39,053 nucleotides of DNA from Acidimicrobiales bacterium (GTDB lineage Bacteria > Actinomycetota > Acidimicrobiia > Acidimicrobiales > JABEUL01), in NCBI GenBank assembly GCA_027371755.1, contig DAHXLF010000006.1:1-39053 (forward strand). The letters are read 5' to 3'. Made by a program: the position numbers and the translations under genes. This document shows, piece by piece, positions 5,119 to 23,332 of the stretch; positions within the stretch are counted from its first letter, which is position 1; the number at the start of each line of letters is the position of its first letter. The notes beneath the pieces are model-generated. The model saw only the letters and a list, made by a program, of their open reading frames with translations. It was not told where the DNA came from and searched no databases.

Positions 5119-6897
5119 TTAAAGGCTGTACCCGCGAGGGGTATAAAAATATTGCATTACCGGTTTGGCATTAGATGCGCCTACTATCAAGGTTGTGTTC
5201 ATATCAACAGATTCCAGGTCAAAATCTTTAACGTGAACCAATTGGCAAACTTCATTGCTTCTATAGGCATTTTTTACAATTCCAACTAAGGTATTTGCTC
5301 CGCGGATTTCTTTGATTTGGTCAATTAAATATTTTAAGAGTTCTATCCGGTTGCTACTTTTGGGGTTATAGATCGCCATTGCAAAGTCATTGGCTAAAGC
5401 AGCATCTATCCGTTGCTTTATGGCTTTTTTGGAGGTGTGGAGATCCGACAAACTTATAACCGCAAAATCGTTTCCAAGTGGAGCTCCCAACTTACTGGCG
5501 GCACTGGAGGCGGCTGTTATTCCAGGTATGATTTCAATTCTTAAGTTTGAATACTCGTCCGAACCGTTACTGCTTTTTAGGGCACGATCTAGAATTTCAA
5601 AAAATAACGAAGCCATTGCATATATTCCCGAGTCGCCGGAACATATTATTGAAGCGCAGTAGCCCTCTTTTGCGTAACTTAGTGCAGATTCTACCCTCTC
5701 GGTCTCTTCACCGATACTCCAGTCTTCTATAAGTTGTGTTGTATTGGTCAAGCTGGAGATATAGCTGTTATATGCAGAGTATCCGATGATGGCATCTGAA
5801 CTCCTAATGGCCTCAATGGCTTTCGGAGTCAACAGCCCGATGTCGCCGGGTCCGATTCCGATTAAATTAATTTGCTTAGTTGGTTGCAATAGGCTTACGG
5901 CTAAGGTTAAATTAGCGGTCTTGGCTTTGTCTATGACCAGCTTGGAATCTTGATGTGTATTTATCAGTGCGGCAGCTTCTGCCACCGAAGACGTACCTAC
6001 GGTGTCGCTGACTACCTTTGAGGGATTGGGAACAGACACGCTGGCTAATTGCTCCGACGAGTAGTAGTTTATAGGTACATCGAGTTTGTGGGAAAGTTCA
6101 ACGACCGCAGGATGGTCCCTTCGAATATCAATTGTGTTTAATGTAGATATGGCTTTCAGGGATAAGTTTGATTTGTGAAAAGTTTTTTCCACAAAAGCCA
6201 ACAGTTGTTTAAAATTTGCATTTGTCGACAAACCTATACCAACATTTAGATTTTTTTCACGCAACAGGACTTGTGCTTCAGAATTGTCCGTATTGAAGTG
6301 GGGGTCGGAAGTGATTTTAATGTCGGCTGCAGCGGGTGCGTTTTTTACCGATGGAGTTAACTTTGTAAATTGTCTGGACTTGGATATTTTAAGAGGAAGT
6401 CTCGCGTGCCTGTCTTGTTCGTAATAGATCGGCTCACCGTCCGCTATTTTCCGTGATACCTGGGCGATATTTCCTTCACTTTTAAAGTTGCGAAATAAAT
6501 CAATGGAAATTTTCCCGTTTAAGTCAGTTAAGTTAGTTATAACATCCGTGGAATTTAGCAGATCGGCAACGTAACTCGACAGCAAATTTGCGTTGACGAT
6601 CTCTTTGTGTGAACTAATTAAAGACACTGCAAATTTGGAGTCTTCGTCTACGACTACAATTGCCGGATCGTTGTGTTTCGCCTCCAGCAGGGGAGCAACA
6701 AATCTAACGGCGATAGGTACAGCGGTAAAGAATATTATGGCGTCATATTTAAGGAAAGCTTTTTCGATTTCTGACTTAATATACTTTTTTTCTTTGGGCT
6801 CTACGATTTCAAACGGAAGTCTCGTCGCCAAAAGCTTGCCTTTGTTAGAAAAGACAAACGACGTGACTTTGGCGTTAGCAAATATCTGAAAACTCAT
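5119..6897 (-). CDS. cbiGH: CbiG-CbiH fusion: cobalt-precorrin-5A hydrolase and cobalt-factor III C17-methyltransferase
   Basis: The protein has two functions. Residues 1 to about 340 are CbiG, which opens the delta-lactone of cobalt-precorrin-5A and releases acetaldehyde. The N-terminal domain is seen at FFTAVPIAVRFVAPLL and DPAIVVVDEDSKFAVSL, and the C-terminal domain at NVGIGLSTN and VGTSSVAEAAAL. Residues from about 342 are CbiH, a SAM-dependent C17-methyltransferase that drives ring contraction: LIGIGPGDIGLLTPKA, GYSAY, CSGDSGIYAMA, IEIIPGITAASSAAS and the ending TPRGYSL. Some CbiG positions are unusual. The LSGHxGGAN segment expected after the DEDSKFAVSL stretch reads ISSHKEIVN here. 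The start overlaps the cbiET stop by ATGA, which implies translational coupling. No strong Shine-Dalgarno sequence is visible. Confidence 0.88.
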   Translation of the reverse strand: MSFQIFANAKVTSFVFSNKGKLLATRLPFEIVEPKEKKYIKSEIEKAFLKYDAIIFFTAVPIAVRFVAPLLEAKHNDPAIVVVDEDSKFAVSLISSHKEIVNANLLSSYVADLLNSTDVITNLTDLNGKISIDLFRNFKSEGNIAQVSRKIADGEPIYYEQDRHARLPLKISKSRQFTKLTPSVKNAPAAADIKITSDPHFNTDNSEAQVLLREKNLNVGIGLSTNANFKQLLAFVEKTFHKSNLSLKAISTLNTIDIRRDHPAVVELSHKLDVPINYYSSEQLASVSVPNPSKVVSDTVGTSSVAEAAALINTHQDSKLVIDKAKTANLTLAVSLLQPTKQINLIGIGPGDIGLLTPKAIEAIRSSDAIIGYSAYNSYISSLTNTTQLIEDWSIGEETERVESALSYAKEGYCASIICSGDSGIYAMASLFFEILDRALKSSNGSDEYSNLRIEIIPGITAASSAASKLGAPLGNDFAVISLSDLHTSKKAIKQRIDAALANDFAMAIYNPKSSNRIELLKYLIDQIKEIRGANTLVGIVKNAYRSNEVCQLVHVKDFDLESVDMNTTLIVGASNAKPVMQYFYTPRGYSL

Positions 6898-8186
6898 GTT
6901 GGATTATTTTGTCCCCATACTATAAAAACCGGGTTGTGGGCTGTTAAGTGCAAAGTATCGTCAGCAAAAAATTTCCCGGCGTTAATATTAACTTGAATCA
7001 GGTTACCTAACATTTTAGCTAATTTTTGAGCCCTATCTAAACTTGCAAATACTCCGACTACGGTTGCCCCAGGATTGGCGTGTTTGAAAAGCCTATTTAA
7101 CCTCTCCAGCTTTCCGCCACCGATTAGTATTGCGTCGGCTTTTGGGAGCTTTTCTTTGTAGTCATAAAAATCCCCAAGGTGAGTTTCGAAAACAACATTG
7201 TGGTTTTTCATATTCTGTCTTAAGTTGGCATAGGCCACAGAATCTCTTTCGAAAGAGATTACCCTCATTAAAGGGGCAAGCTTAATTGCTTCTATGGATA
7301 TTGAACCGCTACCTGCTCCAATCTCAAGCAAGTTTTTACCATTGTCCAAGTTCAATTTGGACAATACTATGGCCCTTACTTCGGGTTTGGTGATCATTGA
7401 TCTCACGGCTTTGTACGCATCAATTGATTCGCCAAAAACAATCTGTTTTAAAGGCAGGTTGCTTGCAATTTGAGGTTTAGGTAATAGTTGTGAATCCGTA
7501 ACGTTTTTGTTTGAAGGTGAAGATTTAGGTAGTATTAACAGAATTGAGTCAGTAGTGACTTTGGATGCAATTAGGGTCTTAAATGTGTATTTAGTTACAA
7601 TGGGATCGTTGTCTAAATTTGACATGACAAAATATCGTCGATTCGACAGTAGCTTGAAGTCACATTGTTTGGCTAACTGTTCTGCGAGTTCATTAGGCGG
7701 AAGATTCTTAGTGCATAAAACCGCCGATTTGGGTGACTGAGCGACTGCATTCATAACAGGAAACAACGGACGCCCCAAAGTTGAGATTACCGTAGCGTCA
7801 TCCCACGGCTCAGCTAATAACGAAAATGCCAAACTTACCGATGAATCAGCAGGATAGCACGAGATGTTGTGGTCAAAAAAATAATGCTTTACCGATCTTA
7901 GGGCTCCAAAATAACCGGGATCTCCTGAGGCAAAGATAATTTTATCCGATTCAAATTTTGAAAAAGCTTCCAAGGCTTTAAAATAGTCGGGATCGAAGTA
8001 ATGAACCTGCTTATCTGAAAAATCGAATTGATTTGTCAGCTTTGAAAGATTGTATTTACTTGTTAAAATTAGGGAGGTATTTTTGATAATCGATTGCAGG
8101 TTAGAATCGAAACGATTTTCAGTATTGTTCATCAAGCCGATTACCGTTAGATTTAAAGCCGGTTTTTGCCTGTTGGAGGGGTTCAT
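6894..8186 (-). CDS. cbiET: CbiE-CbiT fusion (CobL-like): C5/C15 methyltransferase and decarboxylase
   Basis: Two methyltransferases in one chain, equivalent to CobL. Residues 1 to about 235 are the CbiE-type tetrapyrrole methylase (C5), with FASGDPGYFGAL and the downstream TLGRP segment. Residues from about 250 are CbiT (C15 methylation and C12 acetate decarboxylation), a Rossmann-fold methyltransferase: ESIDAYKAVRSMITKPEVRAI, then LLEIGAGSGSISIEA as the SAM-binding loop, FERDSVAYANLRQN and AILIGGGK. The CbiE half lacks its usual first glycine motif: the start reads LTVIGLMNNTEN where the family has a GxGPG sequence. The gene begins 1.4 kb downstream of cbiD, with an IS607 relic in between, so it now needs its own promoter or read-through. 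Confidence 0.87.
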   Translation of the reverse strand: MNPSNRQKPALNLTVIGLMNNTENRFDSNLQSIIKNTSLILTSKYNLSKLTNQFDFSDKQVHYFDPDYFKALEAFSKFESDKIIFASGDPGYFGALRSVKHYFFDHNISCYPADSSVSLAFSLLAEPWDDATVISTLGRPLFPVMNAVAQSPKSAVLCTKNLPPNELAEQLAKQCDFKLLSNRRYFVMSNLDNDPIVTKYTFKTLIASKVTTDSILLILPKSSPSNKNVTDSQLLPKPQIASNLPLKQIVFGESIDAYKAVRSMITKPEVRAIVLSKLNLDNGKNLLEIGAGSGSISIEAIKLAPLMRVISFERDSVAYANLRQNMKNHNVVFETHLGDFYDYKEKLPKADAILIGGGKLERLNRLFKHANPGATVVGVFASLDRAQKLAKMLGNLIQVNINAGKFFADDTLHLTAHNPVFIVWGQNNPT

Positions 8187-8283
8187 TGTTTATGCAAAAA
8201 GGTTGCTGTCGATTAAATTACTATTCCATTCTACAGTAGGCAAAAATATGGTAGTTCATCCTGCCTCTCAACCAGTTCTACGA

Positions 8284-8311
8284 ACCGATTGACCCTGGGC
8301 GCCTGCAACGC
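8284..8311 (-). ncRNA. possible omega-RNA hairpin at the TnpB element end
   Basis: Just past the TnpB stop, CCCTGG and CCAGGG (with partial GCG/CGC continuation) flank a short loop, giving an 8-bp GC-rich stem with one bulge. TnpB guide RNAs are processed from this part of the element and contain such hairpins. The assignment rests on position and one stem only. Confidence 0.25.
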
Positions 8312-8401
8312 CAGGGACCGCTCCTTCCACCGGCAGCTTCCATCGTTGTCGATGTCTCCTGTCGAGTAGTTGAAGGGTGATTGCACGCCGCTCCAGAAAA
8401 C

Positions 8402-8941
8402 CTAGACATTTCTAGGCATCCTTTTCTTTTCGCTCTCCAGCCGTTGAGTCTCCTCGGTCCATAGCCTGTGAACCGGACTCTGCGAATCGGCACTGAGTGT
8501 GCCTCCCACTGCCGGTTTAATCTGGCGTGGTTTGCTTGGAGTCCTGCCGTGAGCGGTAGTCTTACCATGAACGGCGTGAGTTCGGTCACCATTACTGGCG
8601 GTCCCCGAGGGGACACCCGTACCTCCAGTTCGACTTTCCAATCGGCGTTGGAACCTAGCATCAAGGATTCTCTTTACCTCAGTGTAACTGGTATAGAGTG
8701 TGATATTTGGATCACCAATCCTTTTTGCTAAGTTCATAGCGGCAACCTGGTCCACATCACCCTGCCAGTTGCAATCCCAGTGAGGATTACGGCAGTGAAA
8801 CGTGTCCCCATTGCGGTTGTCTTTGTAGACATAACCACAATCTAAGCTGGGACATGTTTGGCTGGTGTAGGCAGCATTAACCGCTTTTACGGGGGAACAT
8901 CCCCTGAACATCCCCTGTACGTATGCACCACTATACGATCT
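8402..8941 (-). pseudogene. tnpB: TnpB C-terminal fragment (zinc ribbon and RuvC III part)
   Basis: After an in-frame stop at 8942-8944, the open frame reads VKAVNAAYTSQTCP, CGYVYKDNRNGDTFHC and DVDQVAAMNLAKRI. This is the zinc ribbon of TnpB, followed by the segment carrying the last RuvC aspartate (in DVDQVAAMNL). The zinc ribbon is slightly irregular, with extra residues between the paired cysteines (CPSLDC, CRNPHWDC). The first two RuvC motifs (DxG and ExL) are absent, so there is no nuclease. About 110 residues follow the ribbon and look like a low-complexity, basic C-terminal tail. TnpB proteins are RNA-guided nucleases whose guide RNA arises from the element's right end, here at about 8260-8410. 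Confidence 0.75.
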
Positions 8942-9022
8942 TCAAGCTCTGATCTCATCCATGTCGAACACAGACGTGAGAGCTTCTTTGATTTTGCTTT
9001 CCCTCTTAAGTGGGAGAGGTCT

Positions 9023-9238
9023 TCATGAACTAACAGTTTTGGACGTTGGGTAGAGAATGGTCTGGCGTTCTGATGGTGCTTTATGTTTAGTTAAGTGACG
9101 CAGTTTGGCAAGATCGTAACGCCGATTCCCTCCAGGAGTACCTTCGGGAGGCTCGATTTTTCCCTGACTCTCCCATCTGCGCAAAGTTTCAGGACGGACT
9201 CCTAACTCCTTGGCTGCCACTTTAATGTTCACCAACAT
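9023..9238 (-). pseudogene. tnpA: IS607 resolvase TnpA, N-terminal HTH fragment
   Basis: The 71 residues begin with a MerR-type helix-turn-helix: KVAAKELGVRPETLRRWESQGKIEP, then GTPGGNRRYDLAKLRHL. This is the standard N-terminus of IS607 TnpA. The resolvase domain should follow at a sequence like RQTILYARVSS, but here RQTILY is followed by 9 unrelated residues and a stop, so the catalytic serine domain is deleted. If expressed, the fragment could still bind DNA and might repress its own promoter. Confidence 0.8.
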
Positions 9239-9270
9239 GTTTATATATTAGCTAATTTCGCTAAACATGT
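9235..9270. promoter_or_regulatory. nested inverted repeats at the IS607 tnpA start
   Basis: Perfect 9-bp arms ACATGTTTA (9235-9243) and TAAACATGT (9262-9270) enclose a second inverted repeat, TTAGC (9248-9252) and GCTAA (9260-9264), with an AT-rich TATATA between. The left outer arm contains the ATG of tnpA. This is a good candidate for the TnpA-binding operator or recombination end. Confidence 0.5.
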
Positions 9271-9566
9271 CTAGTAGTATCTAGGAATAAACTTACAGCG
9301 AGGAGCCCGCCTTGAAGCGATTCCAGGCTGCCCTATATTGAATTCCATTCCTCTTTGCATACTCTGATAACTTCATAATATAACATGTATCATATACCAC
9401 ATGCATACTACAATCAACCATAGAATCTGGTATTCTTTATCTGCACTTAAAGTTTCCCTCGGGAAAAAGTTCAAATCGACGATTATTTGAACATGAAAGC
9501 AGGTTTGTTCCAAAAACCTACGCTGACTTAAATAAACCATTTTAAAAAGTTAACTGACGCTTTGAA
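9271..9566. other. non-coding stretch between the IS607 relic and cbiD
   Basis: No gene seen. It is AT-rich like the host, with no convincing terminator. It is probably a mix of element flank and the original cbiD-cbiET spacer. Confidence 0.5.
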
Positions 9567-10739
9567 TTACAGCGAGTTTGCAATCTCAGTTGCGCCTTCA
9601 AAATCTGTCATATAAACCGCAACGTCGATGTCGGACCCCGCGTAAGTCCGGCAACTGTCGGCTGCCATTTTGCATAATAAAAATAGTGGTTTGTAAAAAT
9701 TTAAATTCATACAAACCTCGGCAAAATGCCTGGCTGTATTGGTGTCTGTCGCTGCTGACTTTACCTGTTCGGGTGCGTTGGTGAGCATTGCTATCTCTAA
9801 TAATAGATTCGTGTTGACATTACTACGTTTGTAGTGCGTCATCATAATACCGTCAGCTAATTTGACAATTTTGCCGCACATGCCTACGAATGTAATTTTA
9901 TTAAAACCGACCTTCGTGGATCTTTTTATTGCAATTCCCGTAAAGTCTCCGACTTCAACTATTGACAGTTTGTTGGCTTCCGGCCATTTTTTAAAAGCAA
10001 ACTGTTCGGTTCGAAAACCCGTTACCAAAATAACCTCGTTTAGCCTTTGGACTCGCGCAACATTGATTTGTTGTACGACAGAGGCTCTGTAGGCTGCCGT
10101 TGAAAATGGTTTTACTATCCCCGTCGTTCCAAGTATCGATATCCCACCAACAATACCCAGGCGGTCGTTTGTTGTCTTTGCGGCCATTTCGACTCCCCCG
10201 GGCACCGTAATTATTAATACGAAAGATTTTGTCGTGTTGACTTGTCGAATACTTTCACTTATCATCTTCAAAGGAATCTTCGTAATTGAGGGTTTACCTA
10301 CGTCAATTCCCAAGCCATTTAAGGTAACCGTGCCGATTCCGGGACCTGCAACTATATCGATTTCAGGTTTGTCTGATTTGCTTATGCGTTTTTCAAAAGC
10401 AAAAACTGTAATTTCAGCTCCGTGGGTACAATCTGGATCGTCGCCGGCATCTTTAATTACGGTTGCAGCACCATAGTTGTCGGTAGTGACTAATCCCTTG
10501 ACTGATTCTAAGACATCGTGTTTTGGCTTTAATACCGTAAAATCGAACTTTGATTCATTTGGTAGCGTAATCTGGACTGATTCAGGTAACTTTTGGGTCA
10601 TTAAATGTATAATTGCAGCTTTTGCGGCTGCGGCAGCTACGGTGCCGGTTGTAAATCCGGTTCTTAGGCCTGATGGTCTTGCCGATACCTCTTCGGCAAG
10701 ATCCGGTTCGTATGGATTGCTACCTGAAGTTTTTGGCAT
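9567..10739 (-). CDS. cbiD: cobalt-precorrin-5B C1-methyltransferase CbiD
   Basis: SAM-dependent methylation at C-1 of the contracted ring, specific to the anaerobic route. The 390-residue protein opens with the family signature LRTGFTTGTVAAAAAKAA. It continues with KDAGDDPDCTHGAEI, GIGTVTLNGLGIDVGKPSITKIP, TVPGGVEMAAKTTNDRLGIVGGISILGTTGIVKP and FVGMCGKIVKLADGIMMTH. All are well conserved, so it looks functional. It is 77 bases downstream of cbiF. The next gene in the transcript, cbiET, is now 1.4 kb away beyond an IS607 relic. Confidence 0.93.
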   Translation of the reverse strand: MPKTSGSNPYEPDLAEEVSARPSGLRTGFTTGTVAAAAAKAAIIHLMTQKLPESVQITLPNESKFDFTVLKPKHDVLESVKGLVTTDNYGAATVIKDAGDDPDCTHGAEITVFAFEKRISKSDKPEIDIVAGPGIGTVTLNGLGIDVGKPSITKIPLKMISESIRQVNTTKSFVLIITVPGGVEMAAKTTNDRLGIVGGISILGTTGIVKPFSTAAYRASVVQQINVARVQRLNEVILVTGFRTEQFAFKKWPEANKLSIVEVGDFTGIAIKRSTKVGFNKITFVGMCGKIVKLADGIMMTHYKRSNVNTNLLLEIAMLTNAPEQVKSAATDTNTARHFAEVCMNLNFYKPLFLLCKMAADSCRTYAGSDIDVAVYMTDFEGATEIANSL

Positions 10740-10816
10740 CTCAAATAATCAACCTGATTTTAAGTAAGGGTGTCAAATGTTTGACCGTTGAACCATCTAA
10801 TGAAAAAATACTTCAT

Positions 10817-11635
10817 TTAAACCAATTTTCCCGGCGTAGTCCCAGTCGGTCTTCCGACAGTTGAATTTTTACTCGATCGTTTCCTAAATTTATGGGCAAA
10901 ATCAGGCGAATATAGATGTGATCTGGCAATTTCTTCCCCTTTTAAAACATCACCAACGATTACAAGCACAGTGGTATTCTGTCCCGTACTTTTAATTGTT
11001 TTTGCCAATTCGCCGACTGTGGTCAATAAAATATTTTCGTCCGGCCAGCTGACCTTGGAAGCAACTACGGCTGGAGTATATTTGGTGTACAATGACGGAG
11101 GGGCTAAAAGTTCTTTTTGAAGTTTTATGGGGTTTGCGGCCGAGAGATATATTGCGCACGTAGATCCGCTGGCGGCCAAATTGGATAGCTGCTCTGATTG
11201 TGGCATTGAGTTTTGAGTTCTGTTGGCCAGCCTCGTTTGAATTATAGTTTGAGAGATCTTCGGTACGGTTAACTCCGTCGCAACTGCCGCAGCGGTGGCC
11301 GCCAGCGAACTTACTCCGGGCACTACTTCGAAGTCATATTTTGATTCTCTGCAATACTGTATTTGTTCTTGAATTGCGCCGTAGATTGTTGGGTCGCCCG
11401 AATGCAATCTAACAATATTTGAAGATGCTTGTTTATCGTCGTATACCTTAAAGACGTCTTCTAGGGTCATTCCCGATGAGTCGTAAAGTTGGGGATCTTT
11501 GGCACAGTGGTTGAGCACTGAGATTGGAACAAGTGAGGATGCCCAAATGACTACATCGGCTGCCTTCAGCCTTTCTAGTCCCCGTAAGGTAATTAAATCT
11601 TCTGCACCGGGACCGGCTCCCACAAATGAAATCAT
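10817..11635 (-). CDS. cbiF: cobalt-precorrin-4 C11-methyltransferase CbiF
   Basis: Methylates C-11 of cobalt-precorrin-4. The tetrapyrrole methylase motifs are intact: ISFVGAGPGAEDLITLRG at the start, LVPISVL, VRLHSGDPTIYGAIQEQ, VVPGVSSLAATAAA and the C-terminal LVIVGDVL. The 272 residues match the family length. The start codon overlaps the cbiL stop (ATGA), so the two are probably translationally coupled. The C-terminal 35 residues after VGDVL are basic and not part of the fold. Confidence 0.92.
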   Translation of the reverse strand: MISFVGAGPGAEDLITLRGLERLKAADVVIWASSLVPISVLNHCAKDPQLYDSSGMTLEDVFKVYDDKQASSNIVRLHSGDPTIYGAIQEQIQYCRESKYDFEVVPGVSSLAATAAAVATELTVPKISQTIIQTRLANRTQNSMPQSEQLSNLAASGSTCAIYLSAANPIKLQKELLAPPSLYTKYTPAVVASKVSWPDENILLTTVGELAKTIKSTGQNTTVLVIVGDVLKGEEIARSHLYSPDFAHKFRKRSSKNSTVGRPTGTTPGKLV

Positions 11636-12375
11636 GATATCTTTGATGGTATGATTACCGTCGCTAAGTAGCTGGCCGATTCGTCTTCATATTCTGACAG
11701 TTTCATAAAGCTTCCATCTTCTAAACCGAGTTTATTTCCTATGACGGCATTTTCAATTCGATCCGATGAAATTAATGCCTCTTTTATCTGAGATATAAAC
11801 TTACCTCCTTTATATATTATAAGCGTGGTGTTTGTATCTTTAAGTAACTCAATTGCGGCATCTATTTCACTAACGCAAGATATCAGGTAAACCTTATCGT
11901 CGTTGTCAGCCAACATAGTATTGGCACGAGCTGCCAGGTCTTGAAACGCCATAATTCCTGGAACTGAGATTATCTTTAATCCGGGTAATAATTCTTTTAG
12001 GCAAATCTGATACGAAGTAAAAGAAGAATAAAGATTCGGATCGCCGAGAGTAACTATTGCGACGTCTAGATTATTTTTTAGAAGTTCGGCAATCAGTAAA
12101 GAGTTTTGCCTGTAGGACTCGAGAGCGTTATCGTCGAGTGACATCTTTAATCGATGGATATTGATGGTGTTGTCGGCCAACTTTACGATAGTTTCGGCGC
12201 GACCAGGAGTATCAATATCTACGGCAGGAGCAAATACGTAGTCAACGCTCTTTAATATGTCCAGCGCTTTCAGGGTAATCAGCTGCGGGTCGCCGGGTCC
12301 AACTCCGACTCCGTATAGAGTGCCTAGAATCGTTAAATTGTTTGAGTCGATATTTTCGTTGCCTGAAATTGTCAT
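11632..12375 (-). CDS. cbiL: cobalt-factor II C20-methyltransferase CbiL
   Basis: First methylase after cobalt insertion: adds a methyl at C-20, the carbon later lost in ring contraction. The fold motifs are LYGVGVGPGDPQLITLKALDIL, FAPAVD, VTLGDPNLYSSF and ISVPGIMAFQDLAAR. At 247 residues the size is normal. It is the first gene of the cbiL-F-D block, so the promoter should lie in 12376-12532 or inside the upstream ceramidase-like gene. No Shine-Dalgarno sequence precedes the ATG, so translation may be leaderless. Confidence 0.9.
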   Translation of the reverse strand: MTISGNENIDSNNLTILGTLYGVGVGPGDPQLITLKALDILKSVDYVFAPAVDIDTPGRAETIVKLADNTINIHRLKMSLDDNALESYRQNSLLIAELLKNNLDVAIVTLGDPNLYSSFTSYQICLKELLPGLKIISVPGIMAFQDLAARANTMLADNDDKVYLISCVSEIDAAIELLKDTNTTLIIYKGGKFISQIKEALISSDRIENAVIGNKLGLEDGSFMKLSEYEDESASYLATVIIPSKIS

Positions 12376-12532: not shown

Positions 12533-14530
12533 TCAATCAAACGGCTCGCTGTGCCATTGTGGTCGATCGCCGTTTTGGTGAAAGAGAAATCTGTGCTTGT
12601 AGCCTCTCTTGAAATGCGGTTCATACCATCTCACTCGGTAGTGATGTCCGCTATCGCTTTGACCCATATGAACAATCTCCAAATCTACATCTTGGTCATC
12701 TGCAATGTAGCCATTACGAGCTGCAAGATGCCAAGTTTGGCCGGTATCACTGTACTGGACTGACACTATGGGCTTGTTCCAATGGATTGCGTCAGGATGA
12801 GCGTCTTGGTAATGGAACTCGTAATACCTTTCAACATTGACCTTGGGGTCATGAAAAACTACTTTTGAGAGCGAGTCTCTTTCGGTATTGGAGCTCATAA
12901 TAGCCGACATGAACTCTTTTGAGTTTAACGCAAATGACCTAACGCTTTCACCTTCATAGACAACACCAGATGCCGCATTGGACAATTCTTGGGACAGATG
13001 AAACACCGCATTGGCAAGAAACGCTTGAGAGTTGGGACCGTAAAGCGTGTGACCGCCTTCGTAATACTGTATACCATACTCCTCTTTCGTTGCAATATAA
13101 CCCGAGTATTCATTTGCAACTGAGGAGACAAGTGATTTCGTAACCCCAATACCTCTAAGCGGTTCGAGTGCCTTTTTTGCAATTCTTTGACCGCTTTCAA
13201 CTGTGATCTCAAAGGGCATGCCGACAATTGCGTAACTGCCGATTCTGATTATTTGGATGGGAAGTATCCGGGGAAAAGAGTTCTTTGACAGCATAATCGG
13301 TTGAAGAAATCTCGATCCAATGACCCATTTTTCACCTTGGGGATCACCGGCTCTGTGAGGTTTTGGGAACCCGGCCTTAAATGGTGGGATTAAATTGATC
13401 ACAGGCGTTGTGTTTTCCTTTGCGCCAGCTACAAGAGCTGCTCCGACTGCGGGTCTATCAGGAATCGTGACTCCATCAATTGTGCGCACTTTGTCCAGAT
13501 TGAGTTCTTTGAAGGCCACACCAAGTTTTACATCACTGCTTAGATCTCCTTCTAGCTCTTTGTAGAGTTCATATGCAGCCTCTCCAATTCCCCTTCCCAC
13601 TCTTTTGGCCTCTAAAAAGCCAGCTTGGCCGGCAATAATTGCGGGCGCTACATCGGCATGGGATCCTTCCATTGCACCAACTATTAATTCGCTACCTAGC
13701 TCTTTCCTGGATCTGACTTTTACTTCTCCACAGATATAGGCCCAAACATCGCTGTGATAAAGATGGTCTTTCACAGGTATGCCAGTACCGTGAACGGAAA
13801 ATATGATTGCAGCACCCATCGGTTTAGTTGACTTACCATCAATTTCATCTATTCTGATAAGTTCCAAAGAAGGGTTTATGGCATGAAACTTCATCTGAGG
13901 ATCCAGCCTTTTATCCTCGACGGTCTCATTTTGAACGTGCGGATGTAGAGATCGATTTCTAGTTAAGCCCCACACCTCCTTGGATCCGATAGCGATCTTT
14001 GCTCTCTTGCGATTTTGGTAGGCATCTACGATCCCATTGGTAATTTCGGTTGCTATGAACTGGGTCCACCTGGCATCAAATCCCGAACGATTAGAAGCGA
14101 ATCGGTTGTAAAAATCTGTTCCTAAGAACTGGCCGGGGGCAGCGTGGGTATGGGTGCCGCCGATCATAATTCCGCCGAGCTTAACATCAGTATTCCCTTC
14201 TACCCCTTTTGCAACTAAATGCTGGATAACAGCTGAACCTCCCAACAAATCACATTGAACGATAGCAAGCGATACCTGCCCTTTACGAAGGTAAAAGATC
14301 CTAGCTCTGAGCCTGGTCCGAAAACCGTTTCCGTTGTGAGCATTTGAAGAGTACCCAGCTTTTGGCATCCCGGGAGGTGGAGTTAGGTCGACTTCTGCGA
14401 CTCCTGCTAGCAGTTCATCTTGAAATGTGACCTCACTGGATTGTTCATGTTTAAAGGAGAATTTTGCCCTAGATCGTTTTCCTGCGAATTGAAGGAGAGG
14501 AGAGTCCGAATTGATATCAAAGTTAGTCAC
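12533..14530 (-). CDS. neutral/alkaline ceramidase homologue, catalytic Ser replaced
   Basis: The whole protein (665 aa) follows the neutral ceramidase family. GVAEVDLTPPPGMPKAGY opens the fold. The zinc-site segments are present: GGTHTHAAPGQF (His127), FSVHGTG-x(8)-HSDVWAY (His247), MPFEITVESGQR (Glu), and EEYGIQYYEGGHTLYGP (the Tyr region). The nucleophile segment differs: the family reads GDVSPN, but here it is ADVAPA, with Ala295 in place of the active Ser. There is no signal peptide, although bacterial ceramidases are usually exported. The start is GTG at 14530 with no clear ribosome site, so it is uncertain. It lies between cbiA and cbiL on the same strand. The true substrate is unknown; it may be a non-catalytic or altered amidase. 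Confidence 0.82.
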   Translation of the reverse strand: MTNFDINSDSPLLQFAGKRSRAKFSFKHEQSSEVTFQDELLAGVAEVDLTPPPGMPKAGYSSNAHNGNGFRTRLRARIFYLRKGQVSLAIVQCDLLGGSAVIQHLVAKGVEGNTDVKLGGIMIGGTHTHAAPGQFLGTDFYNRFASNRSGFDARWTQFIATEITNGIVDAYQNRKRAKIAIGSKEVWGLTRNRSLHPHVQNETVEDKRLDPQMKFHAINPSLELIRIDEIDGKSTKPMGAAIIFSVHGTGIPVKDHLYHSDVWAYICGEVKVRSRKELGSELIVGAMEGSHADVAPAIIAGQAGFLEAKRVGRGIGEAAYELYKELEGDLSSDVKLGVAFKELNLDKVRTIDGVTIPDRPAVGAALVAGAKENTTPVINLIPPFKAGFPKPHRAGDPQGEKWVIGSRFLQPIMLSKNSFPRILPIQIIRIGSYAIVGMPFEITVESGQRIAKKALEPLRGIGVTKSLVSSVANEYSGYIATKEEYGIQYYEGGHTLYGPNSQAFLANAVFHLSQELSNAASGVVYEGESVRSFALNSKEFMSAIMSSNTERDSLSKVVFHDPKVNVERYYEFHYQDAHPDAIHWNKPIVSVQYSDTGQTWHLAARNGYIADDQDVDLEIVHMGQSDSGHHYRVRWYEPHFKRGYKHRFLFHQNGDRPQWHSEPFD

Positions 14531-15147: not shown

Positions 15148-16572
15148 TTAAACAGATATGCTTTCGCGGTAGGAATTTTTAAACAGTGAAGCCTTTTTAA
15201 TAAAATGTTCGCCCGGCGTAATGTCGGAGCCTAAATGAAGGTGAAGATACGATCCAAAGGAATTTTTGAATTTAAATCCGGAATTTTTAACTCCGTTTCG
15301 GGATGAAAATTTCGCCACTTTGCCGATTGGTTTGCTTTGGGTGTAGTGATATTCGTGCCCTTTTACAATATCACCTTTATTCGAAATGCAGGTTTCGCTT
15401 AGAAATGTCGCACTTACGTACCCAAGAGTTAGCTTATCTGTGAGATTTATAGTTGTGGGGAAAACATCGGCCATAGATCTGTCATTGAGTGATGTTGATA
15501 AAAGCAGCAGTCCGCCGCATTCGGCAAAAATAGGAAGATTGTTTACAGCTGCACTTTTAATATTTGTCAGCAGCTTTGCGTTCGCCGAGATTTCTTCTGC
15601 GAATATTTCGGGATAGCCGCCACCGATATAAAGACCGTGGATATCTTTCGGTATCGACTTGTCTTTTAGGGGGTCAAAAAATGTTAGTTGGGCGCCCAAT
15701 TGTTCTAATCGTTTCAAATTTATTCCGTAATAAAAATTAAACCCTTTGCTCTTTGCCACTGCGATATTAATGTTTTGGGCAATCGGTTGAACCAACTTTG
15801 TGGCAGATTGTAATTTCGGCGCACTTTTTGAAATTTCAACAAGTTTTCTTATGTCTATGTTTTCTGTGATCTTGTCGGCAATACCTTTGAGTCGATTTAA
15901 AGTAGCGGTATCATATTCGTCAACTGGGATTAACCCCAGGTGCCTGGATTTTAAGGAGAGTCGATCATCTCTATATATATGGCCTACGATAGGGATATCT
16001 AGTGACTTAAAGGCATCGAGTAGCCCATTTAAATGAGCCTTACTGGAGATGTTATTAAAAATAATACCTTTGATTTGTAAAGTCTTGTTGATTTTGCTAA
16101 ATCCGTAAACTGTTGCTACGCATGAGCCTACAGACGACTTGGCGTCGACAACCAATACAACAGGGCTTTTGGTGACCAAAGCAACGTGAGCCGTCGAACC
16201 AAACGGTAAAAAACTATTTAAGTTTCGTTCTCTATAGTCATATCCAAGTTTTTCGTCAATTGACGCACCGTCAAATAGGCCTAATACCCCTTCTATGACC
16301 GTAATGTCGCTTCCAGTAGAATTTTCCGCTAAAAGAGCGTTTACGTTTGCTTCCCCGGACAAAAATATATCAAGATTTATCGAATCTCTGCCGATGGCAA
16401 ATTTGTGGAACATCGGATCTATAAAGTCTGGTCCGACTTTTGCTGCAGAAACCTTATAGCCCATTTTCGCAAGTTTTGCCATAATCGCAGCAGAAATGAC
16501 GGTCTTTCCAGAATTGGAGGCAGTTGCGGCAATAATTACTCTTTTTGGGATGTTGGTTAAATTTGAAATCAC
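15148..16572 (-). CDS. cbiA: cobyrinate a,c-diamide synthase CbiA
   Basis: ATP- and glutamine-dependent amidation of the a and c carboxylates of cobyrinate. The N-terminal dethiobiotin-synthetase-like ATPase has the P-loop ATASNSGKTVIS (about residues 16-27), then KVGPDFIDPMFH and VIEGVLGLFDGAS. The C-terminal class I glutaminase-type domain has GLYIGGGYPEIFAEE, then PIFAECGGLLLLS with the nucleophilic Cys, and GHEYHYTQ and FGSYLHLHLGS with the His. At 474 residues it is a normal CbiA. The start is GTG without a visible Shine-Dalgarno sequence. It lies 56 bases downstream of cobO, so the two probably share a transcript. Confidence 0.93.
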   Translation of the reverse strand: MISNLTNIPKRVIIAATASNSGKTVISAAIMAKLAKMGYKVSAAKVGPDFIDPMFHKFAIGRDSINLDIFLSGEANVNALLAENSTGSDITVIEGVLGLFDGASIDEKLGYDYRERNLNSFLPFGSTAHVALVTKSPVVLVVDAKSSVGSCVATVYGFSKINKTLQIKGIIFNNISSKAHLNGLLDAFKSLDIPIVGHIYRDDRLSLKSRHLGLIPVDEYDTATLNRLKGIADKITENIDIRKLVEISKSAPKLQSATKLVQPIAQNINIAVAKSKGFNFYYGINLKRLEQLGAQLTFFDPLKDKSIPKDIHGLYIGGGYPEIFAEEISANAKLLTNIKSAAVNNLPIFAECGGLLLLSTSLNDRSMADVFPTTINLTDKLTLGYVSATFLSETCISNKGDIVKGHEYHYTQSKPIGKVAKFSSRNGVKNSGFKFKNSFGSYLHLHLGSDITPGEHFIKKASLFKNSYRESISV

Positions 16573-16628: not shown

Positions 16629-17153
16629 TTAGTACTCGATACCTTTTTTAGCTTTTACGCCTGTGTCGTAAACATGCTTTATCTTTTTCATCTCGGTTAC
16701 GGTGTCTGCAATGTCAATTAATTCCTGCGGGGCATAACGACCCGTCATGACTACATTGGTTTTTGGTGCTCTGCCTTTTACCGCTGATACAACTTCATCT
16801 ATGGGAACCCAACCATATTTAACGATGTAGGTAATTTCATCTAAAATTACCATTTCGTAGTTTCCTGATGCCAATTTGGCCTTTGCCTGCTCAAATGCGT
16901 GCCTGCCTTTTGCTGCAGTTTCGTCTAAGTCTTTCGATTCCCAGGTGAATCCGTCACCCAGGGAATGCCACTCAATTCCAATCTGATCGGCTAGTTTTCT
17001 TTCTCCGATTTTCCACTTTCCTCCTTTTACAAATTGTATTACGGCGACATCCCAGCCTCTAGCCCAGCTTCTTACCATAATACCGAAGGCTGCGGAGGAT
17101 TTGCCTTTACCTTCTCCTGTGTTTAAAAGAACGATTGAATCAACTCGGGTCAT
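16629..17153 (-). CDS. cobO: corrinoid adenosyltransferase CobO (BtuR/CobA type)
   Basis: Transfers the adenosyl group from ATP to Co(I) corrinoid, making the Co-C bond. The 174 residues match the family. The P-loop variant LNTGEGKGKSSAAFG, then AVIQFVKGGKWKIGE, WHSLGDGFTWESKD, MVILDEITYIVKYGW and VVMTGRYAPQELIDIADTVTEMKKIKH are all present, as is the C-terminal GVKAKKGIEY. The starting ATG has no Shine-Dalgarno sequence. The gene lies between cobT (277 bases upstream) and cbiA. The nearby ferredoxin could supply electrons for the Co(II) to Co(I) step it depends on, which is inference. Confidence 0.94.
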   Translation of the reverse strand: MTRVDSIVLLNTGEGKGKSSAAFGIMVRSWARGWDVAVIQFVKGGKWKIGERKLADQIGIEWHSLGDGFTWESKDLDETAAKGRHAFEQAKAKLASGNYEMVILDEITYIVKYGWVPIDEVVSAVKGRAPKTNVVMTGRYAPQELIDIADTVTEMKKIKHVYDTGVKAKKGIEY

Positions 17154-17430: not shown

Positions 17431-18504
17431 TCAGTCCTTATTTGAAATATTTGCCGATTCAAATGTCGCCATGTCATTCAATATATTGGCTGCAGCTTTG
17501 ATAATTGGTATCGATAATGCTGCACCCGTACCTTCTCCCAATCTCAAGTTTAAATTGACCAAAGGAGATAGATTAAGTCTTTTGAGGGCGATAGCGGCTC
17601 CAGGTTCTACGGACAGGTGTCCCGCAAACGAATATTCGCTGATGGTATTGCACAGTTCGAAGGCAATCAGTGCACCAGCCAATGAGATAACACCATCGAG
17701 AATAACGGGTGTCTTCCTGTTCGCCGCACCAAGGATAAATCCCGCAATTTGTCCTATTTCGAATCCGCCGAGCGCGCTTAACACGTTAATCGGGTCACTA
17801 AGATCGTTATTTGATTTTGCTCTTGTAATTGCGGATTGTATGACTTCAATTTTTTTAGTCAGCATTTGGTCATCGATTCCGGTTCCTCTTCCAGTGGCGT
17901 CGTGAGGGTTTGTATCGGTAATGCACGCGATTATTGCCGCCGACGGAGTTGTGTTGCCTATTCCCATGTCTCCGGTAGCCAAAAGGTCGTAGCCTCTGTC
18001 AATTAGAGTATTCGCAACTCGTATCCCTTCTTCAAGGCAGACTACCGCCGAATCGTAATCCATCGCATTTTCTTGAACAATATTTTTAGTTGAATTACCA
18101 ATTTTTTTAACGATAAAATTTGGATTATTATCTGTGTTGTTTATGTCTAAAGCGACACCAGCGTCAATCACATACACGTCGGCTCCCACCGTATTGGCAA
18201 TTACGTTAACGGCCGCTGTGCCGTTTAGGAAGTTGTATACCATTTCGGCTGTAACCTCCTGAGGCCATGGTGAAACCGATTCATTAAGTACTCCGTGGTC
18301 GCCGGCAAAAATTGCCACAACCGGATTTGAAATGGGCTTTGGAGGACACGAACCTTGAATTTTGGCGAGTTTTATCCCGACGTTTTCGAGTTCTCCGAGT
18401 GAGCCGGCTGGTTTAGTAAGGTTATTTTGTCTCACTTGGGCCAACTCGGCATAGTAAGAATCACCCGTATTTATACCATCTAAAGTATTGTGCAATAAAT
18501 TCAT
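17431..18504 (-). CDS. cobT: nicotinate-nucleotide:dimethylbenzimidazole phosphoribosyltransferase CobT
   Basis: Makes alpha-ribazole 5'-phosphate from nicotinate mononucleotide and the lower-ligand base. The protein is 357 residues, the normal size. Motifs are LTKPAGSLGELE, VVAIFAGDHGVLNESVSPWPQEVT, LLATGDMGIGNTTPSAAI, GRGTGIDD, PVILDGVISLAGAL and AGHLSVEPGAAIALKRL. The Glu in SVEPGA is the family's general base. LRLGEGTGAALSIPIIKAA closes the fold. It is the first minus-strand gene of the locus and is divergent from the permease-kinase gene across 256 bases. cobS and cobU, which act next, are not in the window. Confidence 0.94.
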   Translation of the reverse strand: MNLLHNTLDGINTGDSYYAELAQVRQNNLTKPAGSLGELENVGIKLAKIQGSCPPKPISNPVVAIFAGDHGVLNESVSPWPQEVTAEMVYNFLNGTAAVNVIANTVGADVYVIDAGVALDINNTDNNPNFIVKKIGNSTKNIVQENAMDYDSAVVCLEEGIRVANTLIDRGYDLLATGDMGIGNTTPSAAIIACITDTNPHDATGRGTGIDDQMLTKKIEVIQSAITRAKSNNDLSDPINVLSALGGFEIGQIAGFILGAANRKTPVILDGVISLAGALIAFELCNTISEYSFAGHLSVEPGAAIALKRLNLSPLVNLNLRLGEGTGAALSIPIIKAAANILNDMATFESANISNKD

Positions 18505-18760
18505 GATTCAAATGTAGCTCAAAACTGGTTCGCATCCGAAAAGGTACTTAGGGCATGTCAACTAGGCATAGTTTTAGTATTGTTCGTCGGTATTGCAAGT
18601 TAAAGAATCCGTGGTACAGTTTGTCAGGTCGACTCGGCCGACGGTAACTTATGTCGAAGTCAGTCACTACGTTATAAGATGGAATCTAAAAGTTTTTAAG
18701 AAATGTTTTAAAAGCTTAAAATTAACTACTTTGGGTACATAAGAAGAGGTATGAAGCGAG
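18505..18760. promoter_or_regulatory. divergent promoter region, cobT / permease-kinase
   Basis: 256 non-coding bases between two divergent genes, so it should hold both promoters. The GC-rich GTCG-ACTCGGC-CGAC at about 18627-18641 is partly palindromic. Just before the plus-strand gene, AAGAGGT at 18744-18750 is 10 bases from the chosen ATG (18761) and directly touches an out-of-frame ATG at 18751. No cobalamin riboswitch core is visible on either strand. Confidence 0.35.
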
Positions 18761-21262
18761 ATGAAAAAAGAACTAATAGGAATAGAACAGATCCAAAGCC
18801 ACGAAAAGCAGTCAAGTATCGGTTCTGTTGGGTGGATATGGTTTGGGGCAAATATAGGTATGTTCTCGCTTATTTTGGGAGCGATTGAACGTATCAGCGA
18901 CTTGACAATCTCGCAGGCGATTGTGGTAAGCGTACTAGCTTGCACGTTTTCATTTTTAATTGTAGGTGCAATATCGGCAATTGCGGCAAAGTCAGGTCTT
19001 CCTACCCTGACCGTAAGTCGAAAGTTTTTTGGAATGAAGGGTAACTTTATTACGGCGCTAATTAGTTGGATTTCGATTTTGGGCTGGGAGGTCATTTCTA
19101 CTCTGATCGTCACCTGGTGTATGGGAGCATTTATTAAAAGCGTATTTCGTATCAATGAAACTTCAGCGGTAAACGAAATCTGCCTGTTGGTGGCGATCGG
19201 TATTTCATTGTTGTTGGCGTTTTATGGTTTTCAATTAATTGCACGGGTACAAAAGGTTTTTTCGATCATTTTCGGAGCGCTGACTTTGATCTCAATAGGT
19301 TATCTGTTTTTTTCAAATGTTAGATTAGCTAATGGTGTGAACCGTACGTTTAGCGGAGCTTCCACTTCGGCTTCATTTGAGATGTTGGTGGTAGTATTCG
19401 GGATTGTGGCAGCGTCAACGGGCATCAGCTGGATTAATATAGCCGGTGATTTTAGTCGCTATCTCCCAAAAAATACAAATGGGTATAAGTTGACTTCAGT
19501 AATCGTCTTAAGCGCCTCGGTTCCGTGCATAGTCTTAATTATGGCCGGGTATTTTTTACAGGGATTTCATGGCTCACTGGCTAATTCAATTAATCCCGTA
19601 ACCTCTATTTTGTCTGGAGCGCCGAAAATAATGGTTGATCTTTTACTTATTGCAGGAGCCGGTGGAATGCTATTGGAAACTGATTTGGCGAGTTATTCTT
19701 CAGGGCTTAACCTATTGACAATGGGCGTCAAAATTAAACGATCTCGTACCGTATTCATTGACTTGGGCGTAGTGTTTGTCGCTTGCAACATTATGCTTTT
19801 TGGGTTGACTAATGATATAACCACATTTGAAAACTTTTTATTATTACTAGCCGACGGTTTGATGCCTTTTGCCGGAATCGCCATCGCGGATCTTTATATG
19901 GTTAAGAAGATTGAAATTACGGCCCGACGTGATAAGAATGCAGATATTTTCGTATCGGGCGACTTGAACTCAATTTCAGGCTATGGCACTTCAAAGACAA
20001 ACTATAACTTCTTAGGCATTGTCGCTTGGGTTATTGGTGTCTTGGTTGCATTGTCAACCACCGTATGCCCGTTCTATAGTGGATTTTTGGCAAAAGGTTT
20101 TTTGGCGCAGGGAAACTTCGGACTTTATTTGGGTTTTTTAGTATCTTCGGTAATTTACCTCAGCTTGGACGGATTTAATAAGAAAAAAGAGTTAAAGTCT
20201 CACAATCAAAGCGATAAAAAATTAGCTTCAAGCCGAACTGATCTCAGTTGCAAAGGCAAACCAGATTCTGATTTATCCGAAATCGATAAAATACAGGTTC
20301 CAGTTACCCCTAAGAGATTGGTATTAATTGGTTCAGTAATTGTGGATATATTGATGTACGTGGATCGGTTTGTTGTTTACGGTTCAGATCAGATGGCCAA
20401 AGATAATCATATTTCAACCGGCGGAGGGTTCAATGTGCTAGCTGCGGCCAAGCAAATGGGCTTGTCATGCGTCCTTGGAGGAAAAGTCGGTTCGGGATTC
20501 TTCGGAAGGCAAATAGCCCGTGATTTGGAATTGTATGAAATTGCCATACCGCTGGGATTTGACAAAGATAATGATTCCGGTTTTACTGTCGGAATAGTTG
20601 ATGATTCAAAAGTAAATACTTTTGTGACCTATCCTGGGACTGAATCCAAACTTACAGTTGAAGATCTGAAACAGATTGAATTTCATGACGGAGATGCCGT
20701 CTATATTTCTGGTTATGACTTGCTCTATCCAAAAACCGGTTCGACTATTATGAATTTTATTAGGTCGCTTAACCTTAAGGTTTTAACGGTGGTTGATTCC
20801 GGTCCGTTGCTACCAAAAGAGATTGACGGTGAAATATATGAATTCTTAAAAACTACGGATATTTTCACCCTAAACGAAGCAGAAGCAAAGCTGCTGACCG
20901 ATGTCTCTGATGTTATACAAAGCACCGAATTGATATCACGTTTGTTGTCTGATACCGGTATCGCGATAGTAAGAATGGGTTCTGCGGGATGCTGTATTTG
21001 TCAGAACGGTAGTTCTGCAGTTCGCATTAAGACTTCGTCGGGGATTGATGCAAAAGATACCGTCGGAGCAGGAGATATTCATACGGGTGTGCTGCTTGCG
21101 GCAGTATCACACGAAATTGATTTTATTGATTCAGTTGAAATTGCTAACAGATATGCGACACAATCGATTTCCCATAAAGGTGGATTCGACAGAGGAACTG
21201 CCCTAAAGGCAGCTGAAGATTTTATTGAAACTCTAAAAGGCAGTAATTCATCGCCTGAATGA
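18761..21262 (+). CDS. NCS1 permease fused to PfkB-family kinase
   Basis: A single frame of 833 residues with two unlike halves. Residues 1 to about 475 are an NCS1 (cytosine permease/CodB-like) secondary transporter: the N-terminal WIWFGANIGMFSLILGA, SRKFFGMKGNFITALISWISILGWE, GISWINIAGDFSRYLPKNT, LLETDLASYSSGLNL and about a dozen hydrophobic spans. A polar linker runs from 476 to 518. Residues 519 to about 828 are a PfkB/ribokinase-type kinase: RLVLIGSVIVDIL, then STGGGFNVLAAAK (552-564) for the substrate, and DTVGAGD with the catalytic base Asp772. Both halves look complete. The PfkB half resembles ribokinase or nucleoside kinases rather than ThiD. The substrate is unknown. The gene is divergent from cobT, so a lower-ligand nucleoside is one possibility. 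Other nucleosides or a vitamin precursor are equally open. Confidence 0.88.
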   Translation: MKKELIGIEQIQSHEKQSSIGSVGWIWFGANIGMFSLILGAIERISDLTISQAIVVSVLACTFSFLIVGAISAIAAKSGLPTLTVSRKFFGMKGNFITALISWISILGWEVISTLIVTWCMGAFIKSVFRINETSAVNEICLLVAIGISLLLAFYGFQLIARVQKVFSIIFGALTLISIGYLFFSNVRLANGVNRTFSGASTSASFEMLVVVFGIVAASTGISWINIAGDFSRYLPKNTNGYKLTSVIVLSASVPCIVLIMAGYFLQGFHGSLANSINPVTSILSGAPKIMVDLLLIAGAGGMLLETDLASYSSGLNLLTMGVKIKRSRTVFIDLGVVFVACNIMLFGLTNDITTFENFLLLLADGLMPFAGIAIADLYMVKKIEITARRDKNADIFVSGDLNSISGYGTSKTNYNFLGIVAWVIGVLVALSTTVCPFYSGFLAKGFLAQGNFGLYLGFLVSSVIYLSLDGFNKKKELKSHNQSDKKLASSRTDLSCKGKPDSDLSEIDKIQVPVTPKRLVLIGSVIVDILMYVDRFVVYGSDQMAKDNHISTGGGFNVLAAAKQMGLSCVLGGKVGSGFFGRQIARDLELYEIAIPLGFDKDNDSGFTVGIVDDSKVNTFVTYPGTESKLTVEDLKQIEFHDGDAVYISGYDLLYPKTGSTIMNFIRSLNLKVLTVVDSGPLLPKEIDGEIYEFLKTTDIFTLNEAEAKLLTDVSDVIQSTELISRLLSDTGIAIVRMGSAGCCICQNGSSAVRIKTSSGIDAKDTVGAGDIHTGVLLAAVSHEIDFIDSVEIANRYATQSISHKGGFDRGTALKAAEDFIETLKGSNSSPE

Positions 21263-21745: not shown

Positions 21746-23332
21746 ATGTCGAGCGTGGAATATATTTTGGCCATTGACTTGGGAACAGGCGGCCCCAAAA
21801 CTGCAATTGTAACTACATTTGGTGAGGTAGTGGCTTCTGAGCTGACAGAGATACCTACGACTCTTTTACCCGAAGGCGGGGCTATCCAAGATCCTAATTC
21901 CTGGTGGAACGCGATTAAAGAATCATCCGTTAAATTATTTAAAGAATCCGGCGTATCTCCGCAAAGCATCGTGGCCATATCAACTACCGGGCAGTGGGCT
22001 TCGACGGTCGGAATCGATAAACAGGGGAAGCCGGTCACGGATTGCATTCTATGGATGGATTCCAGGGGAGGTAAGTATTCACGGAAAGTCCTGGGTGGAG
22101 TGAAGCCCCTTGAGTTCGAAGGATTTGGCTTGGATAAGGTTTATAAGTTTGTGACAAAAACCGCGGGAATTCCTTCAATCGTAGGAAATGATCCTCTCGG
22201 TCAATATCTACTCATTAAAAACGAGTATCCGGAACTTTTTGAAAAGGTAGACAAATTTTTAGAGCCAGTAGATTTTATATCTCAGTGTTTTACAGGAGAG
22301 GCAAAAGCAACCGCCGCTTCGATGATAGCGTCGTGGCTAGTGGACATAAGGGATTTGTCCAATGCAAAATATTCCAAAGATTTAGTTGATATTACTTGCA
22401 GAGATTTTGCTAAGTTACCGGAGTTGATCCCCATTGGAGCCGTTAGCGGAACCGTGACAAAATCGGTAGAGTCGGAGATCGGAATTAAGGCGGGAACACC
22501 CGTAATTTCAGGTACGCCCGATTTGCTGTCGGGATGCATGGGATCGGGCGGGTTGGATAATTATGAGTTTCATATGGCAATTTCCACCACTTCGTGGTTG
22601 TCCTGCCATGTTGACAAGAAGAAGACAGACCCATTTCGCCAAATCGCAACCGTACCGGGACCGATGAAAAATAAGTACATGCTAGTGAATAATCACGATA
22701 CGGCCGGGATATGTTTACAGTGGATTAAAGACGCATTATATTCGACATCCAGCGACGGCGATATAAATTATGGGCAATTGGATGAAATTGTCTCTAAGGT
22801 TAGTCCCGGTGCAAATGGAATGATGTTTACTCCATGGCTTGGAGGGGAGAGGTGTCCCATAGAAGATAGAAATTTAAGAGGTTCATTCTTAAACGTTTCT
22901 CTTGAATCTACAAAATCAGACATGCTAAGAGCGGTTTTTGAAGGTGTGGCATTTAATGCTAAATGGATGCAGGATGCTGTGGAACATTTTGTTAAAAGGC
23001 CAACCGGGGTCATAAGACTAATAGGTGGAGGCGCGGTGTCATCTCAGTGGTGTCAAATACATGCGGATATCATGAATACCGAAATTTGGCAAATAGACCA
23101 ACCTCTGTATGCCAATGTCAAAGGCGCGGCATTGTTTGCCAGCTTTAATCTTTCCAAAATAACCAAAGACGAAATTAAAAAGAATGTAAAAGTGAAAGAA
23201 AAGTTTACACCGGATTCTAAAAATAGAAAAATGTATGACTTGATGTATTCGGAATTTAAAAATATTTATAAATCTCAAAAATCGTTTTTTAAGAATCTAA
23301 ATAATCCAAAGAGTAAATCATTATTTTTGTGA
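21746..23332 (+). CDS. FGGY-family carbohydrate kinase (xylulokinase-like)
   Basis: ATP-dependent kinase of the XylB/GntK group, 528 residues. The N-terminal phosphate loop is LAIDLGTGGPKTAIV, followed by ISTTGQWASTVGID and CILWMDSRGGKYS. The second domain has ISGTPDLLSGCMGSGG, FTPWLGGERCPIEDRNLRGSFLNVS and RAVFEGVAFNAKW. The signature VIRLIGGGAVSSQWCQIHADI and the ending YANVKGAALFA match FGGY signature 2. AAAGGTAGG lies about 12 bases before the ATG and is a reasonable ribosome site. The sugar cannot be read from sequence. The neighbouring permease-kinase makes a salvage route ending in a phosphorylated pentose possible, but that is inference. Confidence 0.88.
   Translation: MSSVEYILAIDLGTGGPKTAIVTTFGEVVASELTEIPTTLLPEGGAIQDPNSWWNAIKESSVKLFKESGVSPQSIVAISTTGQWASTVGIDKQGKPVTDCILWMDSRGGKYSRKVLGGVKPLEFEGFGLDKVYKFVTKTAGIPSIVGNDPLGQYLLIKNEYPELFEKVDKFLEPVDFISQCFTGEAKATAASMIASWLVDIRDLSNAKYSKDLVDITCRDFAKLPELIPIGAVSGTVTKSVESEIGIKAGTPVISGTPDLLSGCMGSGGLDNYEFHMAISTTSWLSCHVDKKKTDPFRQIATVPGPMKNKYMLVNNHDTAGICLQWIKDALYSTSSDGDINYGQLDEIVSKVSPGANGMMFTPWLGGERCPIEDRNLRGSFLNVSLESTKSDMLRAVFEGVAFNAKWMQDAVEHFVKRPTGVIRLIGGGAVSSQWCQIHADIMNTEIWQIDQPLYANVKGAALFASFNLSKITKDEIKKNVKVKEKFTPDSKNRKMYDLMYSEFKNIYKSQKSFFKNLNNPKSKSLFL

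Follow-up and report, generated by a model that had tools for sequence, protein, structure and literature searches.

The window analyzed here, a 39,053-nucleotide stretch of an Acidimicrobiales genome, encodes a protein in which an NCS1-family permease is joined in a single chain to a PfkB-family kinase. Judging from sequence comparison and gene context, this fusion probably combines an alpha-ribazole importer with an alpha-ribazole kinase, replaces the unrelated CblT/CblS pair and can bypass CobT. The original prediction had linked the protein to B12 synthesis, a reading now supported by linkage to cob genes, loss of CobT among carriers, cobalamin riboswitches upstream of unfused relatives, and loci in which the permease is paired with CblS. 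Beyond this link, we infer that both halves act on alpha-ribazole and that joining them couples transport with phosphorylation.

The fusion gene (18,761–21,262, + strand) is a single open frame of 833 codons with fused homologues in other genomes. Two domains, and only these, exceed the Pfam cut-offs: an NCS1 permease domain at residues 11–442 (18,791–20,086, + strand; PF02133, 104.3 bits against a gathering score of 23.5) and a PfkB kinase domain at residues 519–807 (20,315–21,181, + strand; PF00294, 117.3 bits against 25.8). In an AlphaFold2 model built from 32 aligned sequences (mean pLDDT 83.8), the permease half is predicted to contain 12 transmembrane helices, of which helices 1 and 6 are broken (20–30/34–45 and 206–219/222–232), and the last helix extends beyond the end of the Pfam domain to about residue 490. 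The C-terminal half adopts a predicted ribokinase-like fold, with ribokinases as the best matches among solved structures (TM about 0.8 to the target). The open frame, the Pfam matches and the model thus confirm the claim that a complete NCS1 permease and a complete PfkB kinase share one frame. The polar linker between them was also correctly foreseen (about residues 491–518; 20,231–20,314, + strand; pLDDT below 50 at residues 491–504), but not its length: since the last helix ends near residue 490 and the kinase begins near 518, the flexible part is closer to 25–35 residues than to the 40 first proposed.

The PF02133 match and the 12 helices, two of them broken, are features that the window protein shares, in its predicted model, with CodB/Mhp1-type NCS1 symporters, from which it differs in its fused C-terminal kinase; CodB itself is placed very far away in the permease tree. 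By sequence, the window permease is a divergent branch of the NCS1 family, scoring 70 bits against the NCBIfam subfamily model TIGR00800, below its cut-off of 353.1.

The kinase half resembles E. coli ribokinase RbsK in its fold, GG loop, GAGD-type catalytic aspartate and NxxE motif, although the two are only about 20% identical. In the kinase alignment, the catalytic residues of ribokinase are retained, with equivalents of its Asp16, GG, Asn46 and Asp255 at Asp529, residues 555–556, Asn558 and Asp772. The catalytic Asp772 (21,074–21,076, + strand) and the GGG substrate loop (residues 554–556; 20,420–20,428, + strand), both originally described as intact, are invariant in an alignment of eight fused or paired sequences, as are the whole GAGD motif (G769–D772) and N705/E708 of NxxE. 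A difference from ribokinase lies in the segment containing Glu143, whose position is occupied in the window protein by an SGYD motif (residues 650–653; 20,708–20,719, + strand). The form SGY[DE] is found in both the B12-linked kinases and those linked to ADP-ribosylglycohydrolases, and SGYQ in YegV. Because SGY[DE] stands where ribokinase has Glu143, plain ribose is an unlikely substrate, and the segment would suit a ribose bearing a bulky aglycone. Fixed differences separate the B12-linked from the hydrolase-linked proteins, among them those at permease Asn226 and at kinase Phe608 and Tyr656.

These features bear on whether the fusion might salvage an unrelated nucleoside, a pentose or a vitamin such as the thiamine pyrimidine, a reading that we consider very unlikely. 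The family matches that favor it, TIGR02152 ribokinase for one half and TIGR02358 CytX for the other, are broad and fall far under their curated cut-offs (96.5 bits against 299.65 for TIGR02152), and the genomic context is that of B12 rather than of thiamine or pentoses. Ribose was rejected as a substrate on account of the absent Glu143, and the thiamine pyrimidine (a CytX/ThiD-like role) on account of the low scores and the lack of a thiamine context.

Full-length in-frame fusions of 810–942 residues, about 35–42% identical, occur in other genomes of the same order and are present in at least four families of Acidimicrobiales. A scan of named genomes returned 71 loci, 16 of them fused, all 16 from actinobacterial metagenome-assembled genomes (MAGs), several titled Acidimicrobiales or Acidimicrobiaceae; this result rests on an alignment query, a single-protein query of genome contigs having given no match. 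Since such fusions recur in independent genomes, a sequencing error, a frameshift or a chance join was ruled out as the origin of the fused frame. In the permease tree, the fused permeases form one branch of 15 rows (support 100/99), which also holds L148 and L149, two loci with separate permease and kinase genes that overlap by about 4 bases. In Photobacterium, Klebsiella, Serratia, Paenibacillus and Lactiplantibacillus, the permease and the kinase are likewise adjacent separate genes.

In the window, the fusion gene lies next to a corrin-ring cluster spanning about 4.1 to 18.5 kb. It is divergent from cobT, as originally stated, with 256 bp between the two genes (18,505–18,760, a shared intergenic region with no assigned strand and no Rfam match). 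CobT, the nicotinate-nucleotide:5,6-dimethylbenzimidazole (DMB) phosphoribosyltransferase (17,431–18,504, − strand; TIGR03160, 423 bits, over cut-off), is followed by the corrinoid adenosyltransferase gene cobO/btuR (16,629–17,153, − strand; TIGR00708, over cut-off) and the a,c-diamide synthase gene cobB/cbiA (15,148–16,572, − strand; TIGR00379, over cut-off). NCBIfam models identify the rest of the cluster as precorrin-8X methylmutase, cbiG-cobJ, cbiE-cbiT, cbiD, cobM and cobI (4,088–12,375, − strand). A neutral ceramidase-like protein (12,533–14,530, − strand) adjoins the cob cluster, and IS630- and ISL3-family transposase genes lie at the window edge (175–2,086, + strand). Downstream of the fusion is an FGGY carbohydrate kinase gene (21,746–23,332, + strand), nearest to xylulokinase but below its cut-off; it was rejected as a partner of the fusion, no such gene being found near other fusions.

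To place this arrangement in context, 20 fusion loci were compared: the 16 from the alignment scan, one cut by a contig end (L147), the window, G001 and G694. Adjacency to cob genes, named in the original prediction as support for a B12 role, was found in 13 of the 20, in several arrangements and often inside cob operons. The fusion is the last gene after CobN and a chelatase subunit in L138, L139, L142 and L147, lies between a chelatase subunit and CobB in L133, is divergent from a CobI/CobM operon in L135, L137, L145 and L146, stands beside CobQ, upstream of it, in L134 and G694, and is convergent with CobK (PF02571) in L143. By our estimate, which takes a cob cluster to span about 25 kb of a roughly 3-Mb genome, a random gene would rarely lie beside cob genes, although the fusion loci are related rather than independent. 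Cob genes are absent from L131, L132, L136, L140, L141, L144 and G001, three of these seven contigs being shorter than 6 kb; four of the seven loci, L131, L132, L140 and G001, come from the family of the window, in which only the window's fusion is cob-linked. In G001 and G003 (L037, 4,480–8,537; L038, 4,449–8,652), the genes after the fusion encode a radical-SAM/SPASM protein and a molybdopterin oxidoreductase. The outcome that had been set against the original prediction, halves lying apart in all relatives and never near cob genes, was not what we found: fusions recur, and many are cob-linked.

The distribution of CobT further connects the permease–kinase unit with lower-ligand metabolism. 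In one and the same set of 397 genomes of the order, CobS was found in 228 and CobT in 209. Among the CobS-positive genomes, all taken from incomplete MAGs, CobT is missing in 11 of 17 carriers of an NCS1-PfkB fusion or gene pair, versus 19 of 211 others (Fisher p = 2.4e-7, uncorrected for phylogeny), and the difference persists at 90% completeness or above (6/11 versus 12/162; p = 1.8e-4, likewise uncorrected). The 11 carriers without CobT represent six families, so the number of independent losses is smaller than 11. When 15 genomes scored as CobT-less were searched again with a profile that included divergent CobTs, only two partial matches with E about 0.004 appeared. CobT-less genomes retain CobU, CobS, CbiB, CobQ and CobN (for example CobU-CobS-CbiB-CobD-CobQ-CobN in G530), and all six genomes with the permease only (G065, G093, G048, G124, G121 and G555) have CobT. 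The association holds across the order but not for the window's own genome (82% complete), which has CobT, as do its family members G001, G003 and G004; no BluB over cut-off was found in the window's genome, G003 or G004. It had been objected at the outset that CobT would make salvage redundant. This objection stands for the window's genome and fails across the order, where carriers tend to lose CobT and keep CobS.

The same distribution weighs on two readings in which CobT would be the partner of the fusion. The adjacent cobT in the window would be in keeping with import and phosphorylation of nicotinate riboside or nicotinamide riboside, supplying the mononucleotide used by CobT, and nicotinamide riboside is a cargo of the yeast NCS1 protein Nrt1. 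Yet NCS1-PfkB units are enriched in CobT-less genomes and show no link to NAD genes, and this is the least probable of the readings considered. Alternatively, the cargo of the NCS1 half could be a free benzimidazole base, whether 5,6-dimethylbenzimidazole or another, for use by CobT, while the kinase acts on a different B12 intermediate. NCS1 proteins are classically nucleobase carriers, the window's cobT adjoins the fusion, and unfused relatives share operons with CobT (L060, L155 and L158), where the base would be useful cargo; because the permease also pairs with CobT alone, it may carry the base rather than the riboside. Against this, most NCS1-PfkB genomes that keep CobS lack CobT and could not activate an imported base, and a riboside kinase, CblS, is another partner of the permease. 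We therefore regard free-base transport as unlikely, albeit the strongest of the competing readings.

The pairing with CblS became apparent from permease relatives that lack a PfkB partner. CobT lies before or after the permease in L060, L155 and L158, and the permease is within a cob cluster in L163 and L165. In five loci (L160, L162, L163, L165 and L193), all from Alicyclobacillaceae and other Bacillota, the permease is directly 3′ of an AIRS-family gene, defined by a PF00586 match that in L163 scores just under the cut-off. A plasmid search matched this gene to positions 22,416–23,072 of plasmid pMF1298-5 (CP013155.2), whose operon has been described as CblT, CblS, CobS and CobC (PMC6722938) and whose annotated gene order is ECF S component, hypothetical protein, cobS and phosphatase. 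Listeria and Cytobacillus show similar cob contexts for AIRS/CblS homologues. Given the homology of the AIRS gene to the CblS of pMF1298-5, the NCS1 permease in these loci occupies the place of CblT beside the alpha-ribazole kinase. In L163 (8,361–9,788), and likewise in L165, both from Alicyclobacillus, the CblS-like AIRS domain is fused to a precorrin-2 dehydrogenase-type NAD-binding domain. Other arrangements among the relatives include a permease with two SEC-C-tailed radical-SAM/SPASM genes after it (G093; L058, 6,661–9,469) and a permease of the same group between ruvB and queA-tgt that overlaps queA by about 95 bases (L059, 7,648–10,285) and might carry a queuosine precursor instead. 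BluB-CobT fusion proteins were observed in G550 and G736 (L118, 901–2,673; L116, 1,598–3,328), and G678 is alike by its open frame.

Cobalamin riboswitches (Rfam RF00174) are located just upstream of, and on the same strand as, 13 unfused permease units, with a plausible start codon at most about 130 nt from the riboswitch end. These units comprise NCS1-PfkB gene pairs (L040, L105 and L106), units with CobT (NCS1-CobT in L060; CobT-NCS1 in L155 and L158), CblS-NCS1 units (L160 and L193) and lone NCS1 genes (L062, L107, L151, L157 and L159). No riboswitch was found directly before a fused gene among the fused loci scanned, where the riboswitches of the clusters face neighboring operons, and an Rfam scan of the window, including the cobT/fusion intergenic region, returned no recognizable cobalamin riboswitch.

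Homologous permeases and kinases also occur in cassettes with an ADP-ribosylglycohydrolase. Such cassettes are widespread (L032, L033, L034, L108 and L152–L200), many with a GntR regulator and some on plasmids, and may be compared with E. coli yegTUVW. The ADP-ribosylglycohydrolase-NCS1-PfkB-GntR cassettes of Plesiomonas, Klebsiella, Serratia and Lactiplantibacillus resemble the fusion in having homologous permease and kinase genes side by side and the SGY[DE] segment, but they are unfused, have their own hydrolase gene and, in the seven hydrolase-linked loci scanned, no cobalamin riboswitch. As ADP-ribosylglycohydrolases cleave alpha-N-ribosidic bonds and alpha-ribazole is an alpha-N-riboside, we speculate that alpha-ribosides may be a theme common to the B12-linked and hydrolase-linked groups. 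The fusion might serve catabolism of an alpha-riboside or nucleoside, like these cassettes of gammaproteobacteria and Bacilli, its proximity to cob genes being incidental. Outside the B12-linked set, no relatives are nearer than the cassettes, and in the kinase tree those of Paraburkholderia and G482 contribute kinases to the 17-row branch (85/91) that holds the fused kinases. This reading nevertheless appears improbable, given cob linkage and riboswitches far beyond the incidental, the lack of cobalamin riboswitches in the seven hydrolase-linked loci, and a search of the window's genome (82% complete) that found no PF03747 hydrolase.

The route best fitting these observations is most likely lower-ligand salvage, known in kind but built from proteins other than CblT and CblS. 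The NCS1 half would import alpha-ribazole, the alpha-N-riboside of 5,6-dimethylbenzimidazole, and possibly other benzimidazole alpha-ribosides, together with a cation. As such folds have their C-terminus on the cytoplasmic side, the tethered kinase would meet the transport product and convert the riboside to alpha-ribazole-5′-phosphate, trapping the cargo; the phosphate would then pass to CobS, which joins the lower ligand to the corrin ring. Such a route could bypass BluB and CobT. In the window's genome, which also has CobT, the fusion would be a second ligand supply, plausible if BluB is truly absent. Several observations count against this reading: the window's genome and three relatives in its family keep CobT, other fusions in that family lie away from cob genes, and riboswitches stand before unfused units but not directly before fused genes.

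CblS and CblT are an alpha-ribazole kinase and transporter, respectively (PMC6461909, PMC5064896), and their salvage role in Listeria innocua is credited in those two papers to Gray and Escalante-Semerena (2010). In Lactobacillus coryniformis, cblS-cblT is present and CobT is missing (PMC5064896). The predicted job of the fusion, import and phosphorylation of alpha-ribazole for CobS, is the same, and its carriers are also often without CobT; the known pair, however, consists of an ECF S component (CblT) and an AIRS-family protein (CblS), whereas the window encodes an NCS1 symporter and a PfkB kinase in one chain. A literature search, with subscription papers mostly outside its scope so that an earlier description is possible, found no NCS1-PfkB fusion and no NCS1 protein tied to B12 lower ligands.

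A wider proposal, on which we see the balance as even, is that a previously unrecognized NCS1 branch takes up B12 lower ligands in Actinomycetota and Bacillota, where CobT, CblS and a new alpha-ribazole kinase of the PfkB type are its interchangeable partners; that Acidimicrobiales fuse permease and kinase such that the riboside is phosphorylated on entry; and that alpha-ribosides in general are the substrates of the hydrolase cassettes and perhaps of E. coli YegU/YegV. Seawater and bacterial exometabolomes contain free alpha-ribazole, the uptake of which has been proposed as a means of rescue for B12 auxotrophs (PMC9296465). In a survey of cobamide pathways across genomes, such salvage is recognized by CblS only, which is present in 3.2% of species, most of them Firmicutes (PMC6461909). 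If our reading is correct, genomes currently judged incapable of completing a cobamide could complete one from an imported ligand, and a genetic marker for lower-ligand exchange would become available outside Firmicutes. The fusion itself would be an unusual case of a secondary transporter covalently joined to a kinase that traps its cargo.
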